DNA from: Asparagopsis taxiformis
Lineage: Eukaryota > Rhodophyta > Florideophyceae > Bonnemaisoniales > Bonnemaisoniaceae
DNA: 64,000 nucleotides
Direction of reading: 5' to 3'
Assembly (NCBI GenBank): GCA_030407315.1
Contig: JALQPE010002300.1
Coordinates: 1 to 64,000 of the forward strand
Shown here: one piece after another, positions 1 through 22,717 of the stretch
Layout of the letters: every line of letters begins with the position of its first letter
How positions within the stretch are numbered: position 1 is the first letter of the stretch
The notes under the pieces: model-generated
The model's database searches: none
What the model was told of the DNA's origin: nothing
Seen by the model: only the letters and a program-made list of their open reading frames with translations
Translations under genes and position numbers: made by a program

Positions 1-390
1 TCCACTTTCTCTAGTACATATGGGGAATACTAGGACCCGACATCCACTTTCTCTAGTACGTTGGCGGAATACTAGGACCCGACATCCACTTTCTCTAGTA
101 CATATGGCGGAATACTAGGACCCGACATCCACTTTCTCTAGTACATATGGCGGAATACTAGGACCCGACATCCACTTTCTCTAGTACATATGGCGGAATA
201 CTAGGACCCGACATCCACTTTCTCTAGTACATATGGCGGAATACTAGGACCCGACATCCACTTTCTCTAGTACATATGGCGGAATACTAGGACCCGACAT
301 CCACTTTCTCTAGTACATATGGCGGAATACTAGGACCCGACATCCACTTTCTCTAGTACATATGGCGGAATACTAGGACCCGACATCCAG
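1..390. repeat. 43-bp satellite, 9 units, open to the left
   Basis: Nine head-to-tail units start at 1, 43, 85, 128, 171, 214, 257, 300 and 343. The first two are 42 bp and the rest 43 bp. Each begins TCCACTTTCTCTAGTAC and ends ACTAGGACCCGACA; a partial tenth begins at 386. Units 3-9 are essentially identical, which implies recent homogenisation. The array runs off the window edge. The words CTAGTA, ATACTAGG, ATGGCGGA and GACATCC also occur in the composite-element terminus at 22.5-22.7 kb, so the satellite may derive from an element end (inference). Confidence 0.97.
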
Positions 391-513
391 TATACAATAT
401 ATCAGCGAAAACCGGGAGGGAAGAAATTACAGCGGATGGTAAATTCAGGGCCCATATCGGACCGTATTTTATTCTCTCATTTAGGAAACTGCTCGTATAC
501 AATACGTCTCTCT

Positions 514-628
514 AGAATAGGGAATACATATCTGGTCAGAATAGGAAATAAATACCCGGTTAGAATAGGAAATAAATACCCGGTTAGAATAGGAAATACG
601 TATCCAGCCAGAATACAAAATACCTGTC
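514..628. repeat. 24-bp short tandem repeat, about 5 units
   Basis: Imperfect units start at 514, 538, 562, 586 and 610 (partial) on the pattern AGAATAGGAAATAnATACCC. The two middle units are identical. The repeat creates an open frame at 436-849, which I do not consider a gene. Confidence 0.9.
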
Positions 629-2033: not shown

Positions 2034-2071
2034 GTACGTGCGCGAATCTTGATCAAGATTCGCGCACGTAC
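2034..2071. repeat. Perfect 38-bp palindrome
   Basis: GTACGTGCGCGAATCTTGA is followed with no spacer by its exact reverse complement. It lies where the degenerate repeat block ends. It could fold as a cruciform or act as a protein-binding site; neither is shown. Confidence 0.95.
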
Positions 2072-2668
2072 AAAGCAAAGTCGGTCAAAGAAGATCAGTC
2101 GGTGATGAGGGCGGAGTGGAGCCTGCGGCGTCGACCGGACAGCTTTCTGCGTCCGCTTAAGTCTTGCTGTGCATACTCGAAATCATCGCCGGCAGTGAGA
2201 TTGAGTATGGCCCAAGCCATGGTCTCTGATTCCCCGAACAAAGAGATCCGGATCGAGAACAACGAATATAAACATATAATCATATATATGAGAATCCATT
2301 TGCTTTCCTTACATGATCTGTGGCATATCCGCTGTAAAGCACATTCAGATTCCACGAAGTTTGGAAATAAAAAAGTTTATTATTACAAATGAATTAATTG
2401 AAAATTCATCTCCCAGGGCAGTCGTTCGTCCTTCCATGCACACGTTGCCAGCACGCAATGTGATGTAACAGTTGGAAATGATTGAACTCTCGGTTAAATT
2501 CCACCGTTGGGATGTCAGCTGGAGTGAGCACAAAACTACTACCCAAAAAACTACGAACACGTTACATTCCAAGTCTCGAAAGCACCACAAAAATAAAATT
2601 GGTCGCATCTGGACGGCACAGTCTCCCCTGTTCAGCTCGCAATCCTCCCTTTTGCGTCAAAACTCGAC
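2072..2668. other. Leader region before the transposase, no assignable gene
   Basis: Open frames on both strands at 2,095-2,392 are short, overlap and match nothing I recognise. The minus-strand frame ending at 2,095 has a plausible coding texture but no family signature. The rest is AT-rich and probably holds the promoter of the gene starting at 2,669. Confidence 0.4.
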
Positions 2669-5600
2669 ATGGAATGCAAGTATGAAGGGTGCTTCTACTA
2701 CTGCGTAGATGCTTATGCGCTCGCGCTGCATGAGCGAACGTGTCGCTACCGTTTCAACCCCTCTCCCCAACATTTCAACAACGCTCGTGTCCCTGCCGTC
2801 ACCCATGAGCCTGCTCGAAACGGCGACCATGATTCCCCGCAACCCAGCTCCCCAGACCCAGAATCTGGTCGTGCTTCCTCCAGCGACTCACCCTGTGACG
2901 CTTCACTGCCACCAACCTCAACCCCCTCCCGCGCAGACCTCCTCGTGCAATCCCTCGCCGCCAGTCTCACAACCCTCGAGTACAAGGCCGGCGCTGGCCG
3001 CGTGAGCGAAGTCATCACCATCCTACAAGACCCCGCATTCTCCCTAGAAAAGTTCAACAGCGCCGTTCGCACCGTAGAAGAATGTCGCCACGTTACCGCT
3101 TCCATGGTCGAAACACATTTCCGCACCGAAGGTTACAAGAGCCACATCATTCCAGACAAAACTGGTAAGTACTCGGCACAGCTGTACCTCCGCGACCCAG
3201 TCGACATGCTCCGCAGGCAGTTAGCACTGGCTAACGACCAAAATACTCTCTTCCACCCCTCCCCACAGACCGCCCCAGACGGCACCGCAATATTTTCTCA
3301 TCCCCTACACACAGAATTCGCGAAAACGCTGCACCAGGTTACTAGACAGCGCGTGCAGCTCTCGGAAGATCCACAGGTCGTATGGGCAGAGGAAAATGAT
3401 CCCACCGCTTCCTCCTTTGCCGGCCTCCTCCAAGTGTACTCCGACAAGAGCAGCACAAGCCTCAAGAGCTCCGCAATCGTCGCATACCCCATACACGTCA
3501 CACTGCTCAACTTCTCCGCCCCCCTCCGTCGCCACTGCATCCGTACCGGCCTCACCATCGTCGGGTATCTTCCGTACATTGTTAACCCTTCGTCCAACGC
3601 CTTGTTCGGTGATGAAATGCCGACAACCTCTAGTTCTGCTAGTCGCGCTCGCAAAATTGATATTCTTCATAAAGCACTCGAAAAAGTGTTTTCGTCCCTA
3701 TCCACCGCGTTCTCTTCCGGGTTCCCCTGCACAGACTCCACTGCAACTGCCCGCCAATGCTTTCCCATCCTAGCCAATTATTGCTGCGACTTTCCAGAGG
3801 CCAAAGAGCTCTCATGCACTCGCAACAGCACTACCACCACACATCCCTGCCACCGCTGCTACATCCCCGCCACTCAACTTGAATCCAGCGCGCCACACCA
3901 GCCCCGCTCCCTCGATGATACACGCTCTGCACGCCAAGAGAGCGCTCAGGAGCATACAACTGCTCCGCTCGAAGCTCTCTCCCTCCTCGAACAACACTCT
4001 GTCCTCGAATCGACCGCTCTTTTACCCACCAACAGTCCCCTAGACCCCTACAACATTTTCTCCTTCGAGCCTCTGCACAATCTCCACCTCGGCATCTCAA
4101 AGCTCATCAAACAGTGCATTGTCCACCGCCTCAGCTCCCCAGACCTCACCACCACTGCCTCCCATTCCGGGACACCTCGCACCTTCAAGAAGGTGAAAAA
4201 ATCCATCCTCGCCGGCTCAAACAGCATTCTGTCCGCTATCGAACGCGACTACTACATCACCGGTCTTCATGTCGACTTCTCCAAGGGTGAGAAGGGCACC
4301 AATTTGAACGGCCTCTTCACGGAGGACGGCATACGCGGCATGCTCGCAGCCAAAGACTATCACCATGTCGACATGGTGTTCCCTTTCATCGCAGCATTCA
4401 TTGACACATGCTGTGACGAAGTAGATACAGCCCCCCTCACTTCCATCTGCACGCAATACTCTGACCTCGTCGCATGGGTCATGAAACGCGGTCGCATCAA
4501 GCACTGGACTGCCGCCGAACTAGAAAGCCTCCAGAACTCCATTTCCTATTTCAAACAATCAATGCTCTCCACCCTCGGCCCATTCCACACCACAGGTCTC
4601 AAAACTTTCAAGTTCCATCTTCTAGACCATCTTCCCGGTGACTTGCAGAGATATGGCGCCCTGGAACACATTGATGCAGGCCCCTACGAACACTCGCATC
4701 TTCTGTTCAAACAGAGTTATAGGAAAACCTCTCGAAGGCGCTCCACAGCCATGGAAGAGACTATTCGCCACATGGAATTCTCCTTGGCCACTCCAACTGG
4801 TCATACCCCATCGAACACATTGGGAAACGCACGCATGATATCGCCCACAGACGGTGCAGTACTCGTTCGCGACGGATTCACCGTTGCACTGCACGACTTT
4901 GCCTCCCTGCTGCCCGATGCAACCCTCCTCGTTGCAGATATCGACGGACAGCCCGATCCTGCCACTCTTTTGCCGCTGCACAACTCCTCGTTCCCGTCTG
5001 GCACCATAACGCTATTCCAGCAACTCGGTGACACAGCTGCACAAGCGTTCCTCACCCTCGCTAGACTGCGCGCCACGGCAGAAGGCCCTCCAATACATGA
5101 CATGGACATTTCCGTCACCGTGGTAAAGTCCGCCTACGTCATGGGAGGGTACGTCCCAGATGCCGACGACTTTGACCCGCACAGTGGCATGCTTCGCCCC
5201 ACAAACGTGTCGAGGCACAAGCAGCAGCGCGTCTTTGCAACTTCATCGTTCGGCCCCGCAAAGAGATCGCAGTACTCCTTTGTCGTCATCTCCGGAACTG
5301 CCGATGACTACAGAACCATATGGGTAGGGCGCGTCCTGGCACTGGTACGCCTGCAGTCTCCAAACCTGTTTCAACCTGTAGAACTCGCTTTCGTTCAGTA
5401 TATGACCTGCTTTGCCCCAAAAACCGCTGTGGAAAAATCACTTGGGTGCATTTGTTTAAAGTGGTCCACATGGGACCCGGACAACGGATCCGTTGACAGC
5501 AATGACACTGCATCCCACAGTGCAGGTGGTCCTTGGTTTGACCTCATTCCTGCATCTACTATATCTGGCACCGTGCACATCGTACGAAGTAACTTTCCAG

Positions 5601-5707
5601 TCAAGCCATTTACGAAACAAATGCACTGGTCGGACCACCGTTTCTATCTCAACCGCTTCTACACCAACACTGATTACCAATTCACAGATGATAATGAAGA
5701 AGAATAA
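2669..5707 (+). CDS. Tnp2/Plavaka-like transposase candidate
   Basis: The 1,012-aa frame is single-exon and starts at ATG 2,669. It opens with a Cys/His-rich stretch (residues 3-26, including CKYEGC and HERTC) that may bind zinc. A CHRC pair lies near residue 394. Around residues 459-475 it reads DPYN then FEPLHNLHLGI, resembling the conserved D-P-x-H-N-L-x-L-G segment of CACTA/Tnp2 and Plavaka transposases. Residues 643-691 hold KFHLLDHL, then E and EHSHLLFK, resembling the downstream K-x-H and E/H motif of those families. I infer a DDE-type nuclease that moves this element, but the catalytic acids were not placed with certainty. AATAAA overlaps the stop codon. It converges on the gene at 5,785-8,070 with only 77 bp between the stops, which suggests a paired gene module. 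The codons are C-rich compared with neighbours. Confidence 0.6.
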   Translation: MECKYEGCFYYCVDAYALALHERTCRYRFNPSPQHFNNARVPAVTHEPARNGDHDSPQPSSPDPESGRASSSDSPCDASLPPTSTPSRADLLVQSLAASLTTLEYKAGAGRVSEVITILQDPAFSLEKFNSAVRTVEECRHVTASMVETHFRTEGYKSHIIPDKTGKYSAQLYLRDPVDMLRRQLALANDQNTLFHPSPQTAPDGTAIFSHPLHTEFAKTLHQVTRQRVQLSEDPQVVWAEENDPTASSFAGLLQVYSDKSSTSLKSSAIVAYPIHVTLLNFSAPLRRHCIRTGLTIVGYLPYIVNPSSNALFGDEMPTTSSSASRARKIDILHKALEKVFSSLSTAFSSGFPCTDSTATARQCFPILANYCCDFPEAKELSCTRNSTTTTHPCHRCYIPATQLESSAPHQPRSLDDTRSARQESAQEHTTAPLEALSLLEQHSVLESTALLPTNSPLDPYNIFSFEPLHNLHLGISKLIKQCIVHRLSSPDLTTTASHSGTPRTFKKVKKSILAGSNSILSAIERDYYITGLHVDFSKGEKGTNLNGLFTEDGIRGMLAAKDYHHVDMVFPFIAAFIDTCCDEVDTAPLTSICTQYSDLVAWVMKRGRIKHWTAAELESLQNSISYFKQSMLSTLGPFHTTGLKTFKFHLLDHLPGDLQRYGALEHIDAGPYEHSHLLFKQSYRKTSRRRSTAMEETIRHMEFSLATPTGHTPSNTLGNARMISPTDGAVLVRDGFTVALHDFASLLPDATLLVADIDGQPDPATLLPLHNSSFPSGTITLFQQLGDTAAQAFLTLARLRATAEGPPIHDMDISVTVVKSAYVMGGYVPDADDFDPHSGMLRPTNVSRHKQQRVFATSSFGPAKRSQYSFVVISGTADDYRTIWVGRVLALVRLQSPNLFQPVELAFVQYMTCFAPKTAVEKSLGCICLKWSTWDPDNGSVDSNDTASHSAGGPWFDLIPASTISGTVHIVRSNFPVKPFTKQMHWSDHRFYLNRFYTNTDYQFTDDNEEE

Positions 5708-5784: not shown

Positions 5785-8070
5785 TCAACCATCCTCCATT
5801 ACGCCAAAACCGTTATCAGCAGTGGCTGCATGGCGCCGCTCCATGCCCCCATACTGTGGGGCATTGATTTCGACATTCAGGTTTGCAGTCAGGTGTCCAG
5901 CATATGGGTCAACGACGAAAAGTTCTGCGCCAATTAGTCCTTGCGCAATCACACAATCCATTACAGCACCGAGGTTTGACGTAATATGCGATTGAATCCA
6001 ATCCTCGGACACTAGAACAAGTGATGAGCAGCGGTTTACATCATCAACGACATGAACAATTCCAGACCCCTCTCCGCTTTGCCACACTTCAACAGCCTCT
6101 CTCGTCACAGTACGGCTTGCAAACACATGCCGTGACTGTGCACTAGTCCGCTGTTCGCTCTCGACAACGTCCGTTTCTTCCCTTGCTTGCGAGCCTTGGA
6201 GACAAGACATGCAGTACACCACCATACCAACTAATTGCTGAAAAGCTACCCCCACATATTGACTGTACCGCCTTGTAAACTCCTTCTGCCGTGCACCTCC
6301 TTTCCCCTTCGGTTCATCCAAACACTCCACAGTAGTCACTAGCCAAGCATCCAGGCGCGCCAGCGTTAGTATGCTCGTCTCTATGTCCATTACTTGTTCT
6401 GGTCGTATCGAATAACCCCTGAAGATGTCCAGCACATTCACAGCTACTCGGTTGTTAAACCATGCATCACCATTCACTTCCATTTCGAAGCTGTCAGGAA
6501 CCAAGCCTTTGCTGTATCGCAGCTCTGAGAACGGTGCCGTTCGCCACCTCCCCATATCCAAATCACCGTTACTTTCCCGTTTCAAAAGCTTCTCAGACGC
6601 TTCGCGCTTTTGTTCCTCTCGCTCGTCCATCTCAGCTCGCGTCGTCAGCATCGTGCATCTAGACATTAATTTCGTGTACCCCAGCGAACCGAACAATCTG
6701 TCCCTCGCATTACGCTTCCGTGCACTCATCACGTCGGACAGTTTCTGCGTCACCTTCACTTTCAATTCCTTGCTCCCCGCCACAGCCTCTTGACAGCACA
6801 CACGCTGCTCCTCATCGGAAAACACATCACACCACGGACTTTGACGCAGTACGTGTCGCACCAAGTCATTCAGCAGATCACTCTCGTCCCTGTACGAAGG
6901 TGTATACCACTGCAGATTCTTGATGATATAGCCCGGAGGGGTAGCAATATATCCTACACCGTTTTCGCTCCAAAGTGCCCCTTCTACCGGCTCTACCTCG
7001 ATGGTACGTCCAGTCCAACGTCTCTGCGTTTGTTCCGCTATAGGGTCCAGCTCCATAGTCTCGTTCTTGCACCACTTTGTCAGGTTTTCCTCAACCGCCC
7101 TAAGAACTCCAAGGTATTTCACAGGAATGGCTTTCTGTATTTTCGACTTACCGCCACCGTGATCACTGATTCTACCTGTTCTCGCAATTGCAGTAAGGCT
7201 GGCATTTTCCGCCTGCAGAGTCTTCACCTTAGCCTCCAACGCAACAATCTCCGTGGTGAGCGCCTTGTTTGCTATGTCCTGGCTAAACACTTTTTTTTCC
7301 AGCTCCGCGATCTTCTTCTTCTGCGCATTGATGCGACTCGCCATTAAATCGATGGATTCCGGCGGATGCAACCTCTCTGCCCTCACCGTCCCCCCATCTC
7401 CCACGCTATCGGGAATATGATGTCCTCCATCGCCAATAGCCTGACGTCGCGGGGGCGTTACGCGCATATTTGGCACCAATGACACTCTGTTGTGACGAGG
7501 CCCGCACTCCGGCTGCTCTCTCCCCTCAGTACCACCTGACCGCCGATGATAGTTGGCATCCTGTGAACGTTGCTCAGAAACAACATCCCTTGCCGCTATC
7601 CTCGGGTCCCTGACTGCATTACCTGCTGGGGCTGATGTACTCGGCATAGTTGGCGCAGTGGGGGTCACAGCCTCCAGTGTCTCGGGAACCCCCGGCTGGG
7701 ACTCCGTCTGCAGCACCTCCGCATCTGCCAACCCGGGAGGAACTACCTTTGCCATAGCACTCTGCCGCAATTCCAACATGTTTTGAGCCACTATCATGTC
7801 ATCATCATGATGTTCACTGTCCCTGCGAGCACGCTTGCCTCGGTCAAGCCCCATCTCTCTCCGCGCCGTTCCTCCTTCCTCACTTTCTCGCTGCGGATCC
7901 CCAGTTCTGCGCCGGTCCGTCTTGCGACTACCGGACCGCGGTTCAATGCTGCCGGTAGGCCCAGACCGCTTCTTCGCACGGGATTGTCGGGCACTCGATA
8001 CAGCAGCTGCTGACCGGGTTTTCTGGAGGCCCGGAGGCTTTGGAGCTTTCTTCGCAATACGCGGCGGCAT
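5785..8070 (-). CDS. Coiled-coil accessory protein of the composite element, function unknown
   Basis: The 761-aa single-exon frame starts at ATG 8,070. Residues 1-110 are basic and Pro/Ser/Arg-rich, suggesting nuclear targeting or DNA contact. Residues 110-235 are low complexity. Residues about 243-295 form a strong heptad pattern (KKKIAELEKKV, EIVALEAKVKTL), so it is probably an oligomeric coiled coil. The C-terminal 450 residues look globular, with W- and Y-containing helices and a final Cys pair, but I recognise no family. It converges with the transposase and lies upstream of the methyltransferase-SET module. A partner or regulator of the transposase is plausible but inferred only from position. 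No homologue is seen elsewhere in the window. Confidence 0.75.
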   Translation of the reverse strand: MPPRIAKKAPKPPGLQKTRSAAAVSSARQSRAKKRSGPTGSIEPRSGSRKTDRRRTGDPQRESEEGGTARREMGLDRGKRARRDSEHHDDDMIVAQNMLELRQSAMAKVVPPGLADAEVLQTESQPGVPETLEAVTPTAPTMPSTSAPAGNAVRDPRIAARDVVSEQRSQDANYHRRSGGTEGREQPECGPRHNRVSLVPNMRVTPPRRQAIGDGGHHIPDSVGDGGTVRAERLHPPESIDLMASRINAQKKKIAELEKKVFSQDIANKALTTEIVALEAKVKTLQAENASLTAIARTGRISDHGGGKSKIQKAIPVKYLGVLRAVEENLTKWCKNETMELDPIAEQTQRRWTGRTIEVEPVEGALWSENGVGYIATPPGYIIKNLQWYTPSYRDESDLLNDLVRHVLRQSPWCDVFSDEEQRVCCQEAVAGSKELKVKVTQKLSDVMSARKRNARDRLFGSLGYTKLMSRCTMLTTRAEMDEREEQKREASEKLLKRESNGDLDMGRWRTAPFSELRYSKGLVPDSFEMEVNGDAWFNNRVAVNVLDIFRGYSIRPEQVMDIETSILTLARLDAWLVTTVECLDEPKGKGGARQKEFTRRYSQYVGVAFQQLVGMVVYCMSCLQGSQAREETDVVESEQRTSAQSRHVFASRTVTREAVEVWQSGEGSGIVHVVDDVNRCSSLVLVSEDWIQSHITSNLGAVMDCVIAQGLIGAELFVVDPYAGHLTANLNVEINAPQYGGMERRHAATADNGFGVMEDG

Positions 8071-8303
8071 AATGAAGCTTTCCCGGAAGCGATGGAACGA
8101 TTGAGTTGCACGAGATACAAAAAAGATTGCTGTATAGTGTCGGTAACCACAACGGTCTGCGATGAACGTTCAGGTCAGGTCAAGTACCGGATAATACGCC
8201 AACAGCCCAGATTGTATACGGTAGGCAGTCATCAACAGTATTTAATGAGGTACAATTACAGCTGTCGAGCTAGGCCGCGAGCACCCCTATGTCCGGAAGA
8301 CGT
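8071..8303. promoter_or_regulatory. Upstream region of the coiled-coil gene and conserved junction segment
   Basis: The first 170 bp are the leader of the minus-strand gene. From about 8,240 the sequence ACAGCTGTC, AGCTAGGC, GAGCACCCC, ATCCGG matches 45,205-45,270 and, inverted, 14,603-14,670. At those other sites it abuts the ParB/dioxygenase gene. This junction therefore belongs to a module boundary rather than to one gene. Confidence 0.6.
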
Positions 8304-8467
8304 CCTGATTTGAATTAAAATTTGGGCTATTCTCAAAAACATGCACATGTGAACATGTTTTTGAGATGGGGGTGTGCCGTACGGCACAATCGGCCGCCCA
8401 AATCAAGGTTTTTTACAATATTTTTGCTGCCCGAAATTCTACAATTTCTGGGCTGGCCAGTAATGCA
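8304..8467 (+). repeat. Double-hairpin repeat HR1
   Basis: First copy of the roughly 165-bp unit that bounds the gene modules. It contains a 12-bp-stem inverted repeat (CTCAAAAACATG, 10-nt loop, CATGTTTTTGAG), then the perfect palindrome GTGCCGTACGGCAC, then a weaker AAATTCTACAATTT dyad next to GGGCTGGCCAG. Orientation here is called plus. Confidence 0.95.
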
Positions 8468-9562
8468 TTAGCTATGTGCTCTAAACCGATTCTAACAAGC
8501 AGAAAGAATCCTCTCCTTCATGACGATGCTCTCGAATTGAGTGCAATGCAACGGACTCCCTCCAGGAGAACGACAAAGCATCGTCTTTTGCAAGACATTT
8601 TCGTACGAAAAATAATCGAAACACATATTTGACTTTAACCTAACAGCTATCGCGAGCACCGTACTCAGCTAAATTTCCTCTGTAATTTCCTTCCTCCAAC
8701 CAATCAATAGCCGCTTGGTCACAGGCTTAAAAGCCTTCCACTATTTGTCCTATCCATCGAAGAGGGTTCGATCCAGGCCTTGATGGGTGTGGAACCCGAG
8801 AACTTGAAAATGGAACATATTGCGACAGAGATGAGATGTCATTCTCTTTCGTTTACTTTTTTCTAACAAGATTCTAAACGTCTACGCAGCGGAACGAACC
8901 CAATGTCGTCCGTCCGTTTTCAGCCCGGTGAGATGTTTTTGCCATTAACGGAGGTGGAGGCGGCTATGGAGGAAGCCTGCGGTTCGGGTATTCTTTCCAT
9001 TAACGGAGGTGGAGGTGGCGGCTTTGGAGGAAGCCTGGAGAACATGTGAGATGTCAGTACCCATGGATCACAAGAAAAACATGTAGAGGTCCAGTTTGGA
9101 TATTGTTGCCATTAACGGAGGCGGAGGAGGCGGCTACGGTGGAAGCCTGGAGAGCATGTGAGATGTCAGTACCCATGGATCACATGAAGAACATGTTGAG
9201 GTGCGGTTCGGATATTCTTTCCATTAACGGAGGCGGAGGAGGCGGCTACGGTGGAAGCCTGGAGAAGAATAGAATAGTCCTATACCCATGGATCACAAGT
9301 AGACGTAGTTGGGCTCCTTTTCGAAGCCCATTCGTCTCTTGAATAAATTTAGCACCCAAATCATATACGATTGCCGAGTTGACACCCCGTATGTCTCGTT
9401 GGTAGAAATAGCAGGGGTTCCACCACTCAGCTGGCGGGAAGTAGTTACTGATTATATGAGATATGGCTTAGCTCCCGCCAAAACCGATAGCTCTGGGCTC
9501 AGGTTCTCCAAATGTGGTTATACGAATGTGTTCTGACAATGGTAGAAGACGAATATCTGCAT
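8468..9562. other. Spacer between HR1 and HR2 with Gly-codon tandem repeats
   Basis: About 1.1 kb with no clear gene. From 8,936 to 9,270 a unit of roughly 60-110 bp recurs four times around CATTAACGGAGGnGGAGG and GGAAGCCTGGAGAACATGTGAGATGTCAGTACCCATGGATCA (the long form is split here only for reference to 9,030-9,070). The whole spacer is conserved at 45,437-46,557 in the second composite copy, with small indels. A 59-codon frame sits at 9,163-9,342. Confidence 0.7.
9163..9342 (+). CDS. Possible small Gly-rich ORF, conserved in the second copy
   Basis: The frame starts at an ATG within the tandem repeat, encodes a run of six glycines (NGGGGGGYGGSLE) and ends WAPFRSPFVS. The second copy (46,161-46,337) keeps the frame. 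Its Gly-run differences are synonymous or a 3-nt indel, but other codons change the amino acid, so selection is not clear. It lies about 740 bp upstream of the methyltransferase-SET start. It could be a micropeptide, an upstream ORF or chance. Confidence 0.25.
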   Translation: MSVPMDHMKNMLRCGSDILSINGGGGGGYGGSLEKNRIVLYPWITSRRSWAPFRSPFVS

Positions 9563-9726
9563 CCTGCTTTGAATTAAAATTTGGGCTATTCTCAAAAACA
9601 TGCACATGTGAACATGTTTTTGAGATGGGGGTGTGCCGTACGGCACAATCGACCGCCGAAATCGATGTTTTTTGCAATATTTTTTCTGCCCGAAATTGTA
9701 GAATTTCTGGGCTGGCCAGCAATGCA
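9563..9726 (+). repeat. Double-hairpin repeat HR2
   Basis: Same orientation and organisation as HR1, with the CTCAAAAACATG stem, the GTGCCGTACGGCAC palindrome and the terminal GGGCTGGCCAG. The 350 bp that follow (9,727-10,077) are the leader of the methyltransferase-SET gene and match 46,723-47,088 in the second copy. Confidence 0.95.
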
Positions 9727-10077
9727 TCTGAGTCGGACATCCCCACGTCCAGTGGCCGTCCGGATGTCGCTCACCTGGTAAGCGTGAGGCACCTGTGTCA
9801 ACCTATGTGACTGGCGGCCTTGCAGTACAACACTCAAAGGCAGGGAATCACAATCTTTTTAAAATTTTTTCTCTACCACGTATCCGTCACAACTTATTAC
9901 CTACACCGGTTACGGGTTTCAAGACCTTTCCAGTGCTGTGTACCCGTATACTCTGTTCCGTTCGATATCAACCAGTGTTCCTCACGAAAGAGTGCAAACG
10001 TCACGAGATACGTCGTCAAATTTGACTGTCTCGCCGAGCGGTCGCCATCCTGTACCGAATTTTCCACTCATTCCATT

Positions 10078-13275: not shown

Positions 13276-13536
13276 GGTCACGAAAGATGTTTTCATTTCG
13301 ACTACAAATAAAGCTACGTTCCAGAGTTGAAGTATATCATATAATGCAGAATGTCCAGCCACCATTAGTCCAGGGTGAAACCTATTCGGCAGTACTCGCC
13401 TGTCAAAAACCAATCGTTCACACTCTAGGTGCACTTCGTCCGAGCAGTGAACCTGACTGCTTGGTTGCTGTTATGCGTGCAGATGCAAAATACAAGACCA
13501 AGTTGAAATGGACGCCCGGTGGATGTCCAGCTCAGT
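13276..13536. other. 3' flank of the methyltransferase-SET gene
   Basis: Holds the likely polyadenylation signal AATAAA at about 13,306 and then AT-rich DNA leading into HR3. No gene is seen. Confidence 0.5.
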
Positions 13537-14602
13537 TGCATTGCTGTCCAGCCCAGAAATTCTACAATTCAGGGCAGAAAAAATATTGCAAAAAACATCG
13601 ATTTCAGCGGGTCGATTGTGCCGTACGGCACACCCCCATCTCAAAAACATGTTCACATGTGCATGTTTTTGAGAATAGCCCAAATTTTAATTCAAATCAG
13701 GGTGTCTAATTTGGCCACAACGGCCCCAGGAACCGACCGCCGCCCCGAGTGGGGTTGTCACTGGCTTCTGTAAGCACTAACTGTAAGGCTAAATGGCGTC
13801 TGACAAAGGGTCAATTTCAGGCTCAATACGCCAGGGACAGGTCTTGGTCCTTGTTCCATCATGGTCCCACCCCACTCTCTCACGACCAACCTGAAATGCA
13901 CGTCCGGTGGATGTCCAGCTCGATTGCACTGCTGGCCAGCCCGGAAATTCTAAAATTTCGGGCACAAAAAAATTGTAAAAAATCAACGATTTCAGCGGGT
14001 CGTTTGTGCCGTACGGCACACCCCCATTTCAAAAACATGTTCACATGTGCATGTTTTTGAGAATAGCCCAAATTTTAATTCAAATCAGGGTGTCTAATTT
14101 GGCCACAACGGCCCCAGGAACCGGCCGCCGCCCCGAGCGGGGTCATCACTGGCTTCTGTAAGCACTAACTGTGAGGCTAAATGGCGCCGGAAGATGGGCC
14201 GATTGCAGGCTTCAAGCCTAAGTTATGCTAGGGAGAAATCTTCTTCCGTGTTTCATCATGGTCCCGCCTTACTCCCTCAACAGAAACACTACTCACCCAT
14301 CACGTTACTCATATTCCGTGCACTTTATATTAGTAGTGAACCCGCCTGCTTAGTTGCTGCAACGCGCATTGAATGCGTGGATGTAGGCAGCACACGACCA
14401 ACCTGAAATGGACGTCCGGTGGATGTCCATCTCAGATGCACTGCTGGCCAGCCCAGAAATTCTAAAATTTCGGGCACAAAAAATCTTGCAAAAATCAACG
14501 ATTTGGGCGGGTCGATTGTGCCGTACGGCACACCCCCATCTCAAAAACATGTTCACATGTGCATGTTTTTGAGAATAGCCCAAATTTTAACTCAAATCAG
14601 GG
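13537..14602 (-). repeat. Double-hairpin repeat cluster HR3-HR5, inverted
   Basis: Three units lie at 13,537-13,702, 13,925-14,090 and 14,437-14,602, all inverted relative to HR1 and HR2. Two spacer types alternate, giving start-to-start distances of 388 and 512 bp. The spacers share GCCCCGAGCGGGG, TCACTGGCTTCTGTAAGCAC and GGACGTCCGGTGGATGTCCA. The methyltransferase-SET gene is thus flanked by HR units in opposite orientations. Confidence 0.95.
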
Positions 14603-14949
14603 TGTTCCCCGGATAAAGGGGTGCTCGCAGCCGCCCCAAAAGCCGCCTAGCTTGACAGCTGTAATTTTAACACATTACACATCAAGGACACTGCCTGCTT
14701 CACGCCACCTCGTCAGGTTTCGAGAGCCCGACTCGGGCCCGTTCTGAACGGACACTCACATCTCGATTGCCTGTCTTGCATTCCAGCGGTCACGATAGGT
14801 GTGTACCTAACAAAATTTCGGTTGTATTGTGTTATTATTTCCAGCGATTGGCGTTCACGACCATTCTTCAACTTAACGTGAAACATACCATCCACATCAC
14901 TCGAATACGTCAACGTCAACCATCTCTTTTCCTTTCCAACTCAACAACC
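14603..14949 (+). promoter_or_regulatory. Junction segment and 5' leader of the ParB/dioxygenase gene
   Basis: Starts with the inverted form of the junction seen at 8,240 (ATCCGG, GGGGTGCTCG, GCCTAGCT, GACAGCTGT). The rest is conserved in the second copy at 44,923-45,270, including TTTCGGTTGTATTGTGTTAT. A frame open upstream of ATG 14,950 begins only at TTG and is taken as non-coding. Confidence 0.5.
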
Positions 14950-17900
14950 ATGGCGGATACGCATTTCAGCAGTTTGTTTTCAACGGTTTGCGGCGATCAA
15001 GTGAGCGCGTCAGCGGAGTCGCGCGGACTCAAGCGCGGCGTCGATGTCGACTTGTTTGCGGACGTGGACGGTGCGGCTGTGCATATTGGGACGGCTTCGG
15101 TGAGCACTGCTGGTGGCGATGTTGGCCTTCCGCGCACGCTGCACAACCACAAGCTGCCGGAAACCGACGAGGCCGACTATATCGTCGTGCGCAACATTGC
15201 GACTAAGGACAAGTTCAAGGACCTCCCGTTCCCGTACATGTTTGATGGCGCCGAGGGACCGCCGGAGACGATGGGTGGAGCATACGCCGCGGCGTTTTAC
15301 CCTTGGGATACTCGGATGATGCGCCCCGCTGCGGAGGATGGCTCTAGCGACATTCGTACCCCTGCTGCAGCGTCAAACTTCAACGCAGCGACGAACCAGG
15401 CCAGCTCGGGACGGATGCCCAGTACCGGTCCAGCAGGCGAAATCACTGGTTCGGGGGGTACGAAGCATCCAGCACGCTCCGTCCCGGTTTCGGGAGGCAC
15501 GAAGCGCCCTGCTCGCTCTGCCAGAGCCTCCAGTGGAGGCACGAAGCACCCTGCTCGCTCCAACGTCACCGAAGCTACTACGCAGGACGTAACCGAGGTG
15601 GACGACGAACCGGAGGTGGCGGAAAGCATTCGTGAGCAGCAGGGGACGCAAATTATGGTGCCCAAGTTTGTGACGTCGGATTACGTCGGAGAAGGAGCGA
15701 CTGTGTTGGTGAGGCAGCTAGTGGAACCGGCCGTGACCCTTCGCGATGTCAAAGAAGACCACGTGGAGGACCTGCGCAACAATATGTTGGCGGTGGGGTA
15801 TGTGAGCTCTTCGCGTATCACTGTGACGGTGCTGAGGTCGCAGAACACGCATTTGTCCGCCGACACGCGTCTGTTCCAGAATGGCAAATTCCATGCCAAT
15901 GCGAACGTGACCGTGATCGACGGACTGCATCGTCTCAATGCTATGCATAGCATTGCGGATGACTTCACGCGCCTCACCCGTATGCACAGAACCAAGCTGC
16001 CACAGGAGGCAAACCGCTTGCGCTGGGTTACTCAGCCTCTGGATGTGTACTACCTTCGCCGCAAGGACGACAGTGATCTCCAGCCTCATGAGATCATCCA
16101 CAAGAGTGCAGAGTCGAACCATACGACTGGGACGCAACTGACGGAGCGCTCCCTGGTTCGAATCTTGTCGTCCATCCAGCAGTTCATCCGTACGATTGCT
16201 GTTGCAAACAACGTGGAAAACGCTGGCGACTTGCGTGAGTCTGATGTCATCCGAACATTGTTCGAGGCGCAGTTCATGGGGATGATGAATTCGACGAACA
16301 CGGCTCGGCGGTGGACGCGTTTGGCTATAGCAACGCTGAAGCATCCTGTTCTCGACGACGTGTTGCGTGAGCTGAACAATTCCGAGCGCCGCAACGAGAT
16401 TGGGATAACGCACCTGGACCACAAGATAGTGCGCGAGTTGCTGGAAGAAAACTTTGTCTTCGTCTTGCGTGGTCTTTCGGAGTACTTGAACCCTGCTCAT
16501 GGCGGACGTCCGGATGGACGCTTTGACGTGAACGACTTTTATACATACGTCCGTCGCGTGACTGCAATAGCAAATTCTCTGTACGCTGCGTTTGGGCGCC
16601 CAAAGAGTATTATGCGCAAGTCATTTCTGAGCACAGAGATGGCAATTGGGTCGGTTAAGCAGCCGAAGGAGTTGCAATGGCATCTCACCAATGCCATTGC
16701 AATGTATAGAGGGGACGACCGGAGCAGTGAGGTTCGAATGCGACGGAGAACCACGCGTTTACAGGATTTGGAAACGAACTTGAAAGAGTTTTTCAATCCG
16801 ACATTGAAGAAGAAGACTAAGGCTCGACGCAAACGCCGCCCTTCTGCTGCCAATGTGAGACTCACTCACAAGAAGCAGCGGAATGTCGAACATGAGCCTG
16901 CTTCGCATGGCATCCGCCGCCGTTCACAGCGACTTCGCTCGACGGGGAGCACACGCCTCGAGGAAGAAGAGCCGGTTGTGGTACAACAATCCGCCGGGGA
17001 AGAAGAGCAGGCCGTTGTTGATAAACCCACCGATCAACAACAAGCCACTGCTTCCGGTGATGAGGTTGACGAAGACTCCGCCCGTTCCCCCGATTCTGCC
17101 GTTGAGATTGTCCCCCAAGATAACCAACGTGCTGGTGCGACTCCCTCCAACCAAGAATCTGTCCATACCGCTTCGGACGAGGAAGACAAACAGGGTGCAG
17201 ACGAGGGCCAAGTCGAAAGCAAGGGGGTCCGCGAAGTGACAATTACATTCACTGTTCCGGAAGGAGTGGAAGTCGATGAAGACGGTTACATCGTTCGTGA
17301 CTCTCCTTCTGAAGACGACCTCCTCTTCGACGACCGTATGCCGTCTCTTCCTGACGATTTCGAAGACCGAGCCGAAGGGCATCATCTGGCGCAGCGTCCC
17401 GCGGATGTCATCGCATCGGTGAGGGTTGGCTGTCTGCCCCCGATTGAGCTCAGGTTGTTATTGGAGAGTGTGGAAATCGATGAGGAGGGCAGAGAGGTGA
17501 GGTATTTGAAGCAAGTGGCGATGGACCCTGTGTTTGAGGGGCTGCATATTCCGGAAGAACATCGGGCTCGTGTGCTATTCGAAATCGATCACGTCTATCC
17601 GATGTTCTTCGCAGCGTGGAAGATGGCTGCCAAGGCGATGTGTGAGCCTACATCGACGTTTCTACCCTCGAGGCTGGACTTCGCTCAGGTTGCGCGAATG
17701 TCTACAAGCTGGAAGGATTCGTATGAGGCCGGCACTGGTATGGCGTACTTCCACAATTGCCGAACGGAAATCAACGAGCGAGGGTATACGGTGATGCACA
17801 ATTTCGCGGATGTAAGCTACCTAGATGCGTCGGACAAGTTCCCATTTGACTTGGGTCTCATGGAAGAAATTCCTAACCAGGAATTGTTTCGGTACTTTTT

Positions 17901-18882
17901 GGGAACGTGGGAGGGGGAGCAGGTGCACAAGGACCCTGGGAACCGGCAGCTGTGGAGTCCCATTGTCAATACGGGGGACGATGAAACAGACGAGAAGAAC
18001 CGGAATGAGGGGAGGGCTCGCTTCACGTCTACGCGCCACTGCCTGGTTGACTATGCCGAGAACGATGAGACGCATATCGACCGGTTCAAGTTTGTGACGC
18101 GGCGAGCCCTGCTGGATGTGTGGTTGGGAATCCTTGTCCGGCTGACAGGGCTGGAGGAGTGCGGTTTACCGGGAGAAAAACTTGTCATGCCGGCATCTGG
18201 GGGACGGTTTTTGATAACGGGAAAGGGGTGTCCTCGGCAGGTCCCACACAATGATTTCCCTGTTCCTCCTCGCGACCGCAAAGATCAACTTCCGGGTTAC
18301 TTTGTTATTGCCAACGGAGATGACCCATTCCCTATCTGGGTGTGTCCAGGGTCCCACAAGTACGTCTTTTCCAAAGCGCTGGAATTAGATATGTACGCCA
18401 AGACGATGAAGCTGAAGAAGGTAATCGTTCCGCCACGTTCAGTCTTCATCGGTCACGGCCATGTACAACATGCCGGGGCAGGGCATGTCGACAGAGTTGT
18501 GTCACACACGACAACGAGGTATCACACGTATTTCAGGAATGCGTCGTATCCGATTCCCGACAATGTTTCGTTTGGTTTCATCAGGCGGTTGGGATTCGAA
18601 GAAGAAGTCATCGCCAATGCTCCGCGCCGGTCTGCAAGGCAAAGTCAACCGGCACCTGTCAATGTTCGCCACAAGACAGTTGTTCCCATCCCGGTCAAGA
18701 AAGATGGTAGGCCGAAGACAGGGCAGCTCCGAATGATGCGGATGAAGACGACAGAACCTCGCAAGGATGTAATGCACACACCGAGTGTGGCCCCGGTAGT
18801 GCCTCTTCTGCCGGGACAACCTGGATATCTAGTTCACTATCATAGTGAGGACGAAGAGGAAGAACAGTTTTCCGACGGCTAG
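14950..18882 (+). CDS. ParB-like domain fused to a PhyH-like 2OG-Fe(II) dioxygenase-like domain
   Basis: 1,310 aa, single exon, start ATG 14,950. Residues about 63-126 form a small domain (TLHN, LPFPYMFDG, WDTRMMRP) that also ends the gene at 63,102. Residues 164-206 hold tandem GGTKHPARS-type basic repeats. A ParB-like domain follows, with VIDGLHRLNA at about 321-330 matching the D-G-x-H-R-x-x-A motif of ParB/sulfiredoxin folds, then a long helical region. Residues 681-757 are acidic and disordered. The C-terminal 430 residues resemble PhyH dioxygenases: HND at 1,100-1,102 (HxD), PGSHK near 1,140, and distal histidines at 1,169-1,174 before arginine 1,182. That would be an Fe(II)/2-oxoglutarate oxygenase; the substrate is unknown, possibly a modified base. 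It follows the methyltransferase-SET gene in the same direction. Confidence 0.8.
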   Translation: MADTHFSSLFSTVCGDQVSASAESRGLKRGVDVDLFADVDGAAVHIGTASVSTAGGDVGLPRTLHNHKLPETDEADYIVVRNIATKDKFKDLPFPYMFDGAEGPPETMGGAYAAAFYPWDTRMMRPAAEDGSSDIRTPAAASNFNAATNQASSGRMPSTGPAGEITGSGGTKHPARSVPVSGGTKRPARSARASSGGTKHPARSNVTEATTQDVTEVDDEPEVAESIREQQGTQIMVPKFVTSDYVGEGATVLVRQLVEPAVTLRDVKEDHVEDLRNNMLAVGYVSSSRITVTVLRSQNTHLSADTRLFQNGKFHANANVTVIDGLHRLNAMHSIADDFTRLTRMHRTKLPQEANRLRWVTQPLDVYYLRRKDDSDLQPHEIIHKSAESNHTTGTQLTERSLVRILSSIQQFIRTIAVANNVENAGDLRESDVIRTLFEAQFMGMMNSTNTARRWTRLAIATLKHPVLDDVLRELNNSERRNEIGITHLDHKIVRELLEENFVFVLRGLSEYLNPAHGGRPDGRFDVNDFYTYVRRVTAIANSLYAAFGRPKSIMRKSFLSTEMAIGSVKQPKELQWHLTNAIAMYRGDDRSSEVRMRRRTTRLQDLETNLKEFFNPTLKKKTKARRKRRPSAANVRLTHKKQRNVEHEPASHGIRRRSQRLRSTGSTRLEEEEPVVVQQSAGEEEQAVVDKPTDQQQATASGDEVDEDSARSPDSAVEIVPQDNQRAGATPSNQESVHTASDEEDKQGADEGQVESKGVREVTITFTVPEGVEVDEDGYIVRDSPSEDDLLFDDRMPSLPDDFEDRAEGHHLAQRPADVIASVRVGCLPPIELRLLLESVEIDEEGREVRYLKQVAMDPVFEGLHIPEEHRARVLFEIDHVYPMFFAAWKMAAKAMCEPTSTFLPSRLDFAQVARMSTSWKDSYEAGTGMAYFHNCRTEINERGYTVMHNFADVSYLDASDKFPFDLGLMEEIPNQELFRYFLGTWEGEQVHKDPGNRQLWSPIVNTGDDETDEKNRNEGRARFTSTRHCLVDYAENDETHIDRFKFVTRRALLDVWLGILVRLTGLEECGLPGEKLVMPASGGRFLITGKGCPRQVPHNDFPVPPRDRKDQLPGYFVIANGDDPFPIWVCPGSHKYVFSKALELDMYAKTMKLKKVIVPPRSVFIGHGHVQHAGAGHVDRVVSHTTTRYHTYFRNASYPIPDNVSFGFIRRLGFEEEVIANAPRRSARQSQPAPVNVRHKTVVPIPVKKDGRPKTGQLRMMRMKTTEPRKDVMHTPSVAPVVPLLPGQPGYLVHYHSEDEEEEQFSDG

Positions 18883-19192
18883 ATATCTTAACAACAACTA
18901 CTTTAGCAAACAATTATCGAGAATATAATCATCTCCTTTATCACTTTCAATCTATGAACCTACTATAATGCACTTCCGTTCCATGCTTTCAAACTAGATT
19001 GTCCATTCCCTAGTGGGTTGGAGCATGATTCCAGGACGATTCCCTCACATCTCTAGACTCGATGGTCTATGCTAGAAATAGCAGAACAATTGGGTTTATA
19101 CGTGCTTCATCGCCAACTTGCTTCTGGTAATGGCTGGACGTGCACGATACACGATCACCTGAAATGGACGTCCGGTGGATGTCCAACTCAGA
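18883..19192. other. 3' flank of the ParB/dioxygenase gene
   Basis: AT-rich, no gene. It is conserved, inverted, at 40,627-40,938, so it belongs to the composite element. Confidence 0.5.
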
Positions 19193-21070
19193 TGCATTCC
19201 TGGCCGGCCCAGAAATTCTACAATTTCGGGCACAAAAAAATATTGCAAAAAACATCGATTTGGGCGGTCGATTGTGCCGTACGGCACACCCCCATCTCAA
19301 AAACATGTTCACATGTGCATGTTTTTGAGAATAGCCCAAATTTTAATTCAAATCAGGGTGTCTAATTTGGCCACAACGGCCCCAGGCACCGGAACCGCCG
19401 CCCCGAGCGGGGTCATCACTGGCTTCTGTAAGCACTAACTGTAAGGCTAAATGGCGCCTAACGATGGGTCGATTCCAGGCTTCAAGCCTAAGTTATGCTA
19501 GGGTGACATCGTTTCCCCTGTTCCATCATGGTCCTGCCTTACTCCTCCACGACAAACACTACTCACCCATCACGTTACTCGTATTCCGTGCACTTTGTAT
19601 GAGTAGTGAACTCGCCTGCTTAGTTGCTGCAATGCGTGGATGTAGGCAGCACACGACCAACCTGAAATGGACGTCCGGTGGATGTCCATCTCAGATGCAC
19701 TGCTGGCCAGCCCAGAAATTCTACAATTTCGGGCACAAAAAATCTTGCAAAAATCAACGATTTGGGCGGTCGATTGTGCCGTACGGCACACCCCCATCTC
19801 AAAAACATGTTCACATGTGCATGTTTTTGAGAATAGCCCAAATTTTAATTCAAATCAGGGTGTCTAATTTGGCCACAACGGCCCCAGGCACCGGCCACCG
19901 GCCCCGATCGGGGCTATCACTGGCTTCTGTAAGCACCAACTGTAAGGCTAAATGGCGTCTGACGAAGGGTCAATTTCAGGCTCAATACGCCAGGGACAGG
20001 TCTTGGTCCTTGTTCCATCATGGTCCCGCCCCGCTCTCTCACGACCAACCTGAAATGGACGTCCGGTGGATGTCCAGCTCGATTGCATTGCTGGCCAGCC
20101 CAGAAATTCTAAAATTTCGGGCACAGAAAAATATTGCAAAAAACATCGATTTGGGCGGTCGATTGTGCCGTACGGCACACCCCCATCTCAAAAACATGTT
20201 CACATGTGCATGTTTTTGAGAATAGCCCAAATTTTAATTCAAATCAGGGTGTCTAATTTGGCCACAACGGCCCCAGGAACCGACCGCCGCCCCGAGCGGG
20301 GTCATCACTGGCTTCTGTAAGCACTAACTGTGAGGCTAAATGGCGCCGAAAGATGGGTCGATTCCAGGCTTCAAGCCTAAGTTATGCTAGGTACGCATCT
20401 TCTTCCGTGTTTCATAATGGTCCCGCCTTACTCCCTCAACACAAACACTACTCACCTATCACGTTACTCATATTCCGTGTACTTTGTATTAGTAGTGAAC
20501 CCGCTGGCTTAGTTTCTGCAATGCGTGGATGTAGGCAGCACACGACCAACCTGAAATGGACGTCCGGTGGATGTCCAGCTCAGATGCACTGCTGGCCAGC
20601 CCAGAAATTCTAAAATTTCGGGCACAAAAAATCTTGCAAAAATCAACGATTTGGGCGGTCGATTGTGCCGTACGGCACACCCCCATCTCAAAAACATGTT
20701 CACATGTGCATGTTTTTGAGAATAGCCCAAATTTTAATTCAAATCAGGGTGTCTAATTTGGCCACAACGGCCCCAGGAACCGACCGCCGGCCCCGATCGG
20801 GGGCTATCACTGGCGTCTGTAAGCACCAACTGTAAGCCGGAGCCGGCTGCCGCCCCGATCGGGGCTATCACTGGCTTCTATTAGCACCAACTGTAAGCCA
20901 AAATCGCGTCTCACGAAGGGTCGATTTCAGGCTCAACACGTCAGGGAAAGGTCTTGGTCCTTGTTTCATCATGGTCCCGCCCCACCCTCTCGCGACCAAC
21001 CTGAAATGGACGTCCGGTGGATGTCCAGCTCGATTGCATTGCTGGCCAGCCCAGAAATTCTAAAATTTCC
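19193..21070 (-). repeat. Double-hairpin repeat cluster HR6-HR9 plus a partial HR10
   Basis: Full units lie at 19,193-19,357, 19,696-19,859, 20,084-20,248 and 20,585-20,748, with a truncated unit at 21,035-21,070. Start-to-start distances are 503, 388 and 501 bp, so the two spacer types alternate as in HR3-HR5. At 20,780-20,880 a short piece of spacer (CCCCGATCGGGG, CTATCACTGGC) is duplicated. The corresponding cluster in the second copy has only two full units, so the unit number varies. Confidence 0.95.
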
Positions 21071-22500
21071 GAAAAATCAATTTGGTGGCCCAGCATCTCC
21101 TGTGCCGAAAATTCCCGCACTCAGTTCTGATATACGTCTAGACGTGTTTCCCACTTGTACGCATCAGGGAAGGCGTCACGGAAGGTTGACACTACGCTAC
21201 TTGTGTACCGCGTCGTCTGAAATAGCGAGTAGTGTTTGTTGTATAGTTGTGGAGTATGCGTCTAGTGGTTTGTAAAGCTTGCAGAACGGGATAGGGATGT
21301 GGGTGGCCCTATTTTATGAATACATGAGTACCAATATTCAGGGTTGACAAAGCGGAAAGGCATAGGCTCATACATGTTTGAGATTGCATAGTAGAGAAAA
21401 TATTTTCATCGAAATTTACATGGAGCTGATGGAGGTTTTAAGGATGAGGTATGAGAGGAAGAAAATTCTTCTGTGGTATGAGGATGTGTTCTGTGGGGGG
21501 ATGGAATCTTGGGATGGTACAGGGGGAGGTGGAAATGTACGGAGTGCGGGTTTAGAATGGATTGTGATTCGGAGAGGAGTGCCGACAAGCATATTATGGG
21601 GATTGGGGAGACGCTGCGGGGTGTTGGGGTAGTGAGGGCGGAGGAGGTGTTTAGGTGGGACCGTAGGAGGGTGCGGTTGAAGGCGCCGAGAGGAGGGGTT
21701 TTTAGGAAAGTGAGGAGAAAGAAGGGGAGGGGGTGGCGTCTGTTCTGGCTGTGGTGAGTGGGGATGTGATGGAGAAGAAGGGGGTTATTGTATTTGGGGA
21801 GGGAGGGGAGTGGGAGGAAGGGTGCGAAGTGGGGGGTTGATATGTGTTTCAGAGCGGGGAGGTTTCTGGGGATACGGCGGGGGAGCCACCCCGCAGTGCG
21901 GGAGCGTGGGCCGGTGGTGGTGGTGTATACGGTATCGAAGATGCGGATGGCGTGGGGGCATGGAGCAGCTGAGGGAGGGAGGGGTGGAGCAGGTCGGGTA
22001 CGGGATGGGGAGTGAGAGGTTTTGGAAGAGTAAGCTGCAGGGGAAGTTTGTGTAGAGGGCGAAGGAGAGGGGTTGAGGGTAGAGGAGAGAGGGTACTGAA
22101 GAACAATACGTTTCAAAGGTGATGGGGGAGAGCATGGTCGAGGAGATAGGGGGTGTTTTGCCCTATTCTGAGGTAGTATGAGGACTGGTTATACGAAATC
22201 TGTACGGTAGAGCAGAAAAGTAGGTATGGAATGGAGGTGTGCACCGTGGAAGCGGGGATAGGTATCTGAAAATGCGTGCTAGAGTGGTATTGGGGGTGTT
22301 TGAGGTACAGTACGGGGGAGGTGAGCACCAACAGGAAGGGGGTGTGAGCGAGAGGATGAAAAAATTAAAGACGAAATTGGAGTCGACCGACAAGGAAAAA
22401 TAGAGTGGTCGCCGTGATGGATGCGGACATCCATGTCGAGCACGGCGGCAGAAATTTCTGGGGTCGAAATTTTTGAATTTCTGAACCGGCGCCCGTCCTA
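21071..22500. other. Subterminal region of the composite element, G-rich, no secure gene
   Basis: The region is strongly strand-asymmetric (G/A-rich on plus from 21,400 to 22,100) and is repeated inverted at 38,290-39,700. Overlapping frames are open on both strands. The plus-strand frame around 21,509-21,757 encodes KCTECGF, then CDSERSADKH, a possible Cys/His finger, and stays open in the other copy. It lacks an ATG and would need a frameshift in the G-run near 21,494. I treat it as a possible decayed zinc-finger gene, not a call. Confidence 0.4.
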
Positions 22501-22717
22501 GGTGGACATAGACATGGCGGAAGTCCATCCCGAGGGGGACATCCGTGGTACTAGAAACAATGAATGTCGCCCTAGTAATACTAGACGTACTAGACCGCAT
22601 GGACGTCCGGTTCTAGGCGGACATCCAAAAATACTGGAGAACATGGACGTCCGCCTAGTAATACTAGGTGTACTAGAGGTTGTGGACGTCCGCGTCCATT
22701 TCCGAGAACACAGACGT
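22501..22717 (-). mobile_element. Terminus of the composite element, copy 1
   Basis: Rich in CTAGTA/TACTAG and GGACGTCC/GACATCC words arranged as nested dyads. It matches 38,053-38,290 in inverse orientation, ending CCGAGAACACAGACGT. Beyond position 22,717 the two copies have unrelated flanks, a methyltransferase fragment here and copia pol there, so this is a true element end. Confidence 0.8.

Follow-up and report, generated by a model that had tools for sequence, protein, structure and literature searches.

A giant Plavaka-type transposon of the red alga Asparagopsis taxiformis carries predicted DNA- and chromatin-modifying enzymes that may act on its own copies

The first 64,000 bases (1-64000) of contig C2174 (JALQPE010002300.1) in the genome assembly of the red alga Asparagopsis taxiformis (GCA_030407315.1; 141.5 Mb, 3156 contigs) were analyzed here and are referred to as the window. 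They open with genes for a Plavaka transposase, a coiled-coil protein, a fusion of a DNA methyltransferase (MT) with a SET domain, and a protein with ParB-like and dioxygenase-like parts, in this order. Do these genes belong to one mobile element, and what would its modification proteins do for it? A first reading of the same DNA, hereafter the original prediction, had listed these four genes in a candidate giant transposon, and profile searches and open reading frames agree with it on the genes and their locations. The results described below make it virtually certain that positions 1-22716 are one giant (about 23 kb) cut-and-paste DNA transposon of the Plavaka type with its left end cut off. 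At more than 20 kb, the element reaches the size threshold for giant transposons as given in PMC6431247. Its features are:

1-389, no strand: subterminal 43-bp satellite of the left end, which in other copies follows the left terminal inverted repeat (TIR) CGTCTGTGTTTTCGGAAGTGGACGCGGACGTCC
2669-5707, + strand: Plavaka transposase, 1012 amino acids (PF18759)
5785-8070, - strand: coiled-coil protein, 761 amino acids, convergent with the transposase; weak coiled-coil matches
8298-9751, no strand: hairpin repeat units at 8298-8468 and 9560-9751, with a tandem repeat of about 112 bp at 8982-9266 between them
10078-13275, + strand: DNA methyltransferase-SET fusion, 1065 amino acids (N6_N4_Mtase and SET; DPPY, then DPFSGT)
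13484-14677, no strand: array of hairpin repeat units
14950-18882, + strand: ParB-like (IDGLHR) and 2-oxoglutarate-iron dioxygenase-like (HND...H...R) protein, 1310 amino acids, named by motif only
19141-21069, no strand: hairpin repeat array downstream of the ParB/dioxygenase-like gene
21070-22716, no strand: right subterminal region and right TIR, ...GGACGTCCGCGTCCATTTCCGAGAACACAGACG

A probe composed of the end of the MT-SET gene and the spacer before the ParB/dioxygenase-like gene matched the window itself and, with 99% identity, at least 39 other places. Twenty stretches were taken around seven of these places and aligned to the window (L handles below denote stretches taken in this analysis), and the block 1-22716 recurred on other contigs with its order kept and 99.3-100% identity. 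The frames of the transposase (all 1007 hexamers) and of the ParB/dioxygenase-like protein (every hexamer) were the same as in the window in five of the seven copies. In C1778 the entire MT frame was identical to that of the window, and the same held for the part taken (969 hexamers) in C1747, C1717, C1593, C1579 and the C1778 copy at 73875. Some copies were incomplete: C1747 lacked the part beyond 16884, the C1778 copy at 73875 lacked the part left of 5448, and the left end was replaced by other sequence in C1717 and in the C1778 copy at 168715, where the transposase and MT frames were also interrupted. The right part of the C1579 copy lies outside the stretch taken. A gene for a Sel1-repeat protein (E 5.9e-19) lies beside the truncated copy in C1747 (L014:2561-4378).

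The copies share imperfect TIRs, CGTCTGTG...CACAGACG; the left end reads CGTCTGTGTTTTCGGAAGTGGACGCGGACGTCC and the right end is its imperfect inverse, ...GGACGTCCGCGTCCATTTCCGAGAACACAGACG. The right terminus proposed in the original prediction is real, with its last base at 22716 instead of 22717. The left boundary had correctly been placed out of view: it lies beyond the start of the window and of the contig and is visible in other copies. Complete copies measure 20.0-23.7 kb, including 23.7 kb in C1778 and 23.1 kb in C1593 as measured from the sequence. Five units have both ends together with the transposase, MT and ParB genes, two as read from sequence (C1778, C1593) and three by exact words (C52, C164, C138). 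Hairpin units of about 170 bp are shared along the element, at 8298-8468 and 9560-9751 and within 13484-14677 and 19141-21069. The satellite also shares words with the terminus, as had been claimed: in the complete C1778 copy the outer parts (left 1100 and right 400 bp) contain 24 of 24 occurrences of CTAGTA and 27 of 28 of TACTAG, most of them within the satellite itself.

To define the target duplication, the flanks of 12 copies with both sides available were compared with 132 mismatched left-right pairs. An exact 2-bp match outside the TIRs was found in seven of the 12 copies and in 13 of the 132 control pairs, while a match of 3 to 8 bp was found in none of the 12. An unoccupied target of the C12 copy was found in stretch L009, where a single AA stands in place of the two AA around the insertion. 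A CG was considered as the duplication and rejected, since both the empty site and the flanks of the 12 copies put it inside the TIR and leave the duplication as the 2 bp outside. The alignment of copies that had been proposed as a check defined both TIRs and this duplication. Several insertions sit inside genes of the element's own or related families. The window copy (22716-22718) adjoins a relative of a second family described below, the C1778 copy at 168715 lies inside an MT gene of that family, the C1778 copy at 73875 and the C11 copy (flank L045) lie inside an MT gene, and the C164 copy (flank L037) lies inside a transposase gene. Insertion sites were located near 1991 in L020 and near 1984 in L023.

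The transposase matched the Plavaka domain PF18759 with an E value of 1.6e-24 (87.2 bits against a cut-off of 26.3). CHRC and HLLDH, candidates for the Plavaka motifs C(2)C and H(3-4)H that precede the last catalytic E, were seen by eye in its translation, unaligned to other Plavaka proteins. The termini are neither TGT..ACA (PlavakaA) nor CATCA..TGATG (PlavakaB) but CGTCTGTG..CACAGACG; they fall outside both described lineages, and therefore the element is called Plavaka-type by its transposase and placed in neither lineage. The original prediction had drawn a parallel with fungal KDZ transposons associated with TET/JBP oxygenases. This parallel holds as an analogy only, the host being a red alga and Plavaka being a transposase group different from KDZ, as described in PMC12730594. 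The 2-bp duplication and the Plavaka domain also differ from the 8-bp duplication of Zisupton and the transposase of KDZ elements. The coiled-coil protein gave only weak coiled-coil matches, below the cut-off. A 1-nt indel at 7684 sets its gene in the window and L013 apart from L010, L016 and L025, and because of it the N-terminal part of this frame is uncertain.

Exact words for the left end, right end, transposase, MT and ParB genes were placed on contigs C1-C196, where they occurred at 92, 100, 38, 63 and 75 places, respectively; all exact-word counts given here are lower bounds. A left end lay 3.5-6.5 kb upstream of 29 of the 38 transposase words, and a right end 3.5-9 kb downstream of 47 of the 75 ParB words. 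The MT word lay 3.5-9 kb downstream of 14 of the 38 transposase words, a low figure to which contig ends, mismatched words and possibly real absence of the gene all contribute. When left and right ends were paired, excluding pairs with another end between them, 25 units were formed. Eleven measured 14-29 kb; three of these contained all three gene words (C52, C164, C138), seven contained one or two, and one (C103) contained none. The other 14 measured 10.0-12.0 kb and had none of the three words. One of these short units, C157, was read: it has the same ends as the long elements, is 88% identical to them over 1.4 kb on the left side and about 74% thereafter, has hairpin units and some 1.9 kb of right-side sequence in common with them, and matches none of the four genes. 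Its 4.7-kb center (L029:3391-8084) lacks long frames and is bounded by a 132-bp inverted repeat (99%) beside hairpin units.

In the whole assembly, exact 30-base end words occurred 616 + 616 times (1232) for the left end and 595 + 600 times (1195) for the right end, against 0 for the control; transposase, MT and ParB words occurred 357, 931 and 887 times. About 1200 elements, each as long as the average of the 25 pairs (15.9 kb), would occupy something like one tenth of the assembly, as a rough estimate. That only 357 copies contain the transposase was considered and rejected, since some copies have mismatches to the 30-mer. Three copies without the exact word (C88, C12, C113) were read where the gene was expected, and all three contained the transposase and the coiled-coil gene, with 93-99.5% protein identity and some broken frames. 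A fungal host was considered and rejected. Contig C469 was taken as plastid, with 11 of the 13 PF00502 phycobilisome matches; the light-harvesting profile PF00504 gave 10 match rows, on other contigs, and the 5.8S rRNA does not resemble those of fungi.

Three further features were located in the window outside the element:

22718-26832: fragment of a relative of the second family, with a ParB-MT gene from 24966 to about 22718 (- strand) and a 453-amino-acid gene at 25471-26832 (+ strand)
38054-48210, - strand: second, truncated copy of the element, with its MT segment inverted
61482-63099, + strand: third, decayed family, with pieces of a DPPY methyltransferase below the Pfam cut-off

The second copy had been predicted to repeat the last two genes and the terminus. 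It does, with its right end at 38054, but its ParB/dioxygenase-like gene (44922-40939, - strand) is split into two frames and its MT gene (47089-48210) is truncated and inverted relative to the first copy. Comparison of the two window copies gave ratios of nonsynonymous to synonymous substitution (dN/dS) of 0.23 for the MT part (373 codons) and of 0.33 (678 codons) and 0.50 (547 codons) for two parts of the ParB/dioxygenase-like gene. These values indicated some coding constraint on both genes; since the second copy is broken, part of the dN/dS signal is decay.

The MT-SET protein matched N6_N4_Mtase (PF01555, E 3.4e-15) and, above the cut-off, SET (PF00856, E 1e-6; residues 909-1058). Its DPPY and DPFSGT motifs follow the beta-class order, and its closest solved structures are DpnA and CcrM for the MT part and KMT2B for the SET part (a weak best PDB match, 2.8e-4). 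The usual SET motif is NHS, and the window protein has INDP at this position. An AlphaFold2 prediction gave a partial model with a mean predicted local distance difference test score (pLDDT) of 52.6, best in the helical N-terminal region at about 50-390. Seven relatives were matched among 7999 candidates scored, one 98% identical and six with 27-33% identity; SET is annotated in four of these six and was detected below the cut-off in a fifth.

The naming of the fourth protein as ParB/dioxygenase stands at the level of motifs: IDGxHR and the HxD...H...R set are common to all four sequences compared, the second being formed in the window protein by H1100, D1102, H1174 and R1190. The window protein gave no Pfam, PHROG or NCBIfam match. 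No TET/JBP match was obtained in Pfam up to E 10, and remote homology is possible. Profile searches of PDB with the dioxygenase and ParB parts returned chance-level matches only. The ParB-like phrog_1033 was matched in the second family (6e-6), and a protein of that family matched SerK (0.0063) and DndB (0.11), for which the window protein gave nothing. One distant homologue (P0001, about 34%) was found among 7998 candidates scored, and a further protein search with four ParB/dioxygenase-like sequences returned only a second-family protein already in the query. The putative ParB-like and dioxygenase-like parts are thus named from conserved motifs and weak profile matches.

The same domains recur, fused differently, in a second multi-copy family, which combines a ParB-methyltransferase-SET with two ParB/dioxygenase-like proteins. 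Its copy at C1778:85565-109332 comprises a 462-amino-acid gene, a ParB-MT gene (824 amino acids), two ParB/dioxygenase-like genes and a 1233-amino-acid protein, and the rest of the MT together with SET lies about 1.5 kb beyond the ParB-MT gene. The 1233-amino-acid protein has no Pfam match and a weak BLAST match to the Plavaka transposase around its D...CxxC region (E 2e-4). The MT word of this family occurred 164 times and that of the candidate transposase 56 times; judging by this copy number, the family is probably mobile. On contigs up to C1983, for which the MT list is complete, an MT word lay 10-20 kb upstream on the same strand for 11 of 28 candidate transposase places, with 0.006 expected for each. 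Two MT pieces of the family gave a dN/dS of 0.52 (343 codons). Tandem repeat arrays, partly palindromic, lie between its genes, and satellite arrays with units of about 104-118 bp were observed at L022:8129-9364 and L128:3144-4782 (both partly palindromic) and at L128:8879-9807.

The fragment at 22718-26832 was considered as a copy of this family and rejected on the 33% identity of its 453-amino-acid gene to the 462-amino-acid gene (E 9e-75); it is a relative. Its ParB part (24966-24235) is 38% identical to the second family, and its ParB-MT gene is interrupted by the insertion of the window element. The 453-462-amino-acid gene is conserved (window 25471-26832; L022:768-2153) without a Pfam match. 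In the third family (window 61482-63099; L049:277-1547), the MT pieces are succeeded by a stretch that resembles the N-terminal part of the ParB/dioxygenase-like protein (32% across 107 amino acids) and then, in L049, by a DUF7869 protein (E 2.3e-22). The reshuffling of domains between families suggests that the enzymes form one functional system, and this linkage is the strongest argument that MT, SET, ParB and oxygenase may act together.

The observed core consists of four genes between shared TIRs that recur as a unit and have spread recently, with 2-bp duplications and with the same ends on short units. We consider it probable that this is one giant Plavaka-type transposon of a red alga whose predicted enzymes keep its chromatin open. 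The transposase, probably with the coiled-coil protein, would act on the TIRs and subterminal repeats. The MT-SET protein would methylate DNA, adenine being a more likely base than cytosine judging from DPPY, and at the same place a histone lysine. The ParB-like part would load the second protein on DNA, where its oxygenase part would remove or oxidize methyl groups, and together the enzymes would hold the chromatin of the element open against host silencing. For this self-directed role in anti-silencing, taken separately and predicted from domains and motifs, we see an even balance. Open chromatin would help to explain the high copy number, which counts in favor of opening. N6-methyladenine lies with trimethylated lysine 4 of histone H3 in several eukaryotes, and this supports the same direction (PMC12695648, in the part available). 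A wider proposal, in which a phage-derived epigenetic system of an MT-SET writer and a ParB-loaded oxygenase eraser, with modules swapped between families, marked the DNA and histones of its own copies and drove their expansion to about a tenth of the genome, is put forward tentatively, as possible rather than probable.

Several observations weigh against the proposed transposon and its chromatin-opening enzymes. Five of the 12 copies lacked a matching 2-bp duplication: C164 has a 22-bp filler between its two flanks, the flanks of C88 match different sequences, the left flank of C11 is MT-gene sequence and its right flank matches no stretch taken, and the duplication is also mismatched in C1778 and C1593. 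Recombination between copies is likely to be behind these flanks. The catalytic motifs vary among the relatives of the MT-SET protein: five of the six distant ones have another sequence in place of DPPY (DPPQ, APPQ, DPPL, DPPF, YPPY), and some may therefore be inactive. The dioxygenase part had no relevant profile match and its AlphaFold2 model failed (pLDDT 29.7), while the ParB assignment of the window protein depends on one hhalign match (probability 52%, E 1.4e-4). The observed/expected CpG ratio was 0.81-1.67, with no strong depletion in any element examined, and therefore gives no sign that the element contends with silencing by 5-methylcytosine. DNA methylation coupled to histone methylation can also have a silencing effect, as in the rotifer N4CMT/SETDB1 system (PMC8885841, in the part available). 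The direction of the effect, opening or closing, thus has support on both sides.

The rival that survives best, although we consider it unlikely, is that the enzymes regulate transposition, methylated ends or copies controlling transposase binding, copy number or self recognition. In elements of the En/Spm type, methylation works together with subterminal repeats and a helper protein, and the ends of the present element are rich in shared short words and exist in very many copies with identical end words. Nevertheless, so high a copy number argues against effective self-limitation, and the SET domain suggests a target in chromatin, beyond DNA alone. It is less likely still that the modification genes are passive cargo with no role for the element. 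Captured genes do occur in large transposons, and the 14 short units among the 25 lack the marker words, the one that was read lacking all four genes; against this stand the dN/dS values below 1 in both genes, the linkage of the same domains to another candidate transposase in the second family, and the MT pieces beside the DUF7869 protein in the third.

That two independent elements, a transposase pair and a modification pair, lie adjacent or nested is very improbable. Hairpin arrays do lie on either side of the MT and ParB/dioxygenase-like genes, in the manner of cassette borders, and among 42 linked MT-ParB pairs 15 follow the window order, the MT segment being inverted in the other 27. Inverted hairpin units flank this segment and the ends of the inversion fall at them, which points to recombination between units. 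Against two elements, all four genes lie between a single pair of TIRs in complete copies, the aligned copies contain no end word in their interior, and the transposase was present in all three apparent exceptions. Neither modification genes alone with TIRs and a target duplication nor a transposase pair with its own ends, the patterns named beforehand as contrary to a single element, was seen among the copies examined. Co-linear recurrence, shared ends and the five units described above identify the four genes as one element, as the original prediction had supposed. An origin as a phage, virus or bacterial contaminant is negligibly probable. In its favor, the beta-class MT is of a bacterial or phage type and is matched by 78 loci on viral contigs. 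Against it, these matches extend over no more than the MT domain, in most cases over 50-90 of its residues, and no viral relative of the ParB/dioxygenase-like protein was found; the MT is joined to SET, and more than 1000 end words lie in the assembly, where flanks of the element fall within further copies of the family.

Transposons carrying TET/JBP or SET genes were already known, and the combination of these four genes appears to be new; no paper with this gene set was found in the open-access PMC literature, as represented by listings with the starts of abstracts. TET/JBP genes are described in Plavaka and ten other transposon lineages of fungi (Kojima 2025, PMC12730594, in the part available). 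The TET/JBP Plavaka elements of Agaricales resemble the present one in their Plavaka transposase, their 2- or 3-bp duplication and an oxygenase gene thought to counter silencing, and differ in their termini, TGT..ACA or CATCA..TGATG against CGTCTG..CAGACG (PMC12730594). The red-algal dioxygenase-like part was not recognized as TET/JBP and is joined to a ParB-like domain, and the element has an additional DNA methyltransferase-SET fusion. Phytophthora HarbingerS and MuDR are likewise DNA transposons with a SET histone methyltransferase gene (cited in PMC12730594); the red-algal element has a transposase of another superfamily, and its SET domain forms part of a fusion with a DNA methyltransferase. 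The ParB-N6/N4 methyltransferase fusions of phages reported in PMC12704722 resemble the second family, in which ParB and N6_N4 MTase are in one protein; that family is eukaryotic and has SET added, whereas the window element joins ParB to a dioxygenase-like part. The main text of PMC12704722, as far as available, contains no word beginning with dioxygenase, transpos or fung. Rotifer N4CMT with SETDB1 is another bacterial-type amino-methyltransferase coupled to histone methylation and transposons in a eukaryote; the rotifer gene encodes a chromodomain-containing host factor with SPPY, while the red-algal MT is transposon-borne, has DPPY and has SET in the same protein (PMC8885841, in the part available). 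A figure legend in PMC12115072 places two DNA methyltransferase genes on the contig of the bromoform cluster of A. taxiformis.

Judging from its predicted proteins, the element may alter its own chromatin and thereby evade silencing. Provided that the enzymes function as interpreted here, a mobile element places both a bacterial-type DNA mark and a histone mark by means of a single protein, and also brings along a matching oxygenase. If this is true, whether transposons set their own epigenetic state becomes directly testable over many hundreds of near-identical copies. It would also suggest how, along one possible route, DNA modification enzymes of phage type enter eukaryotes and gain chromatin domains.

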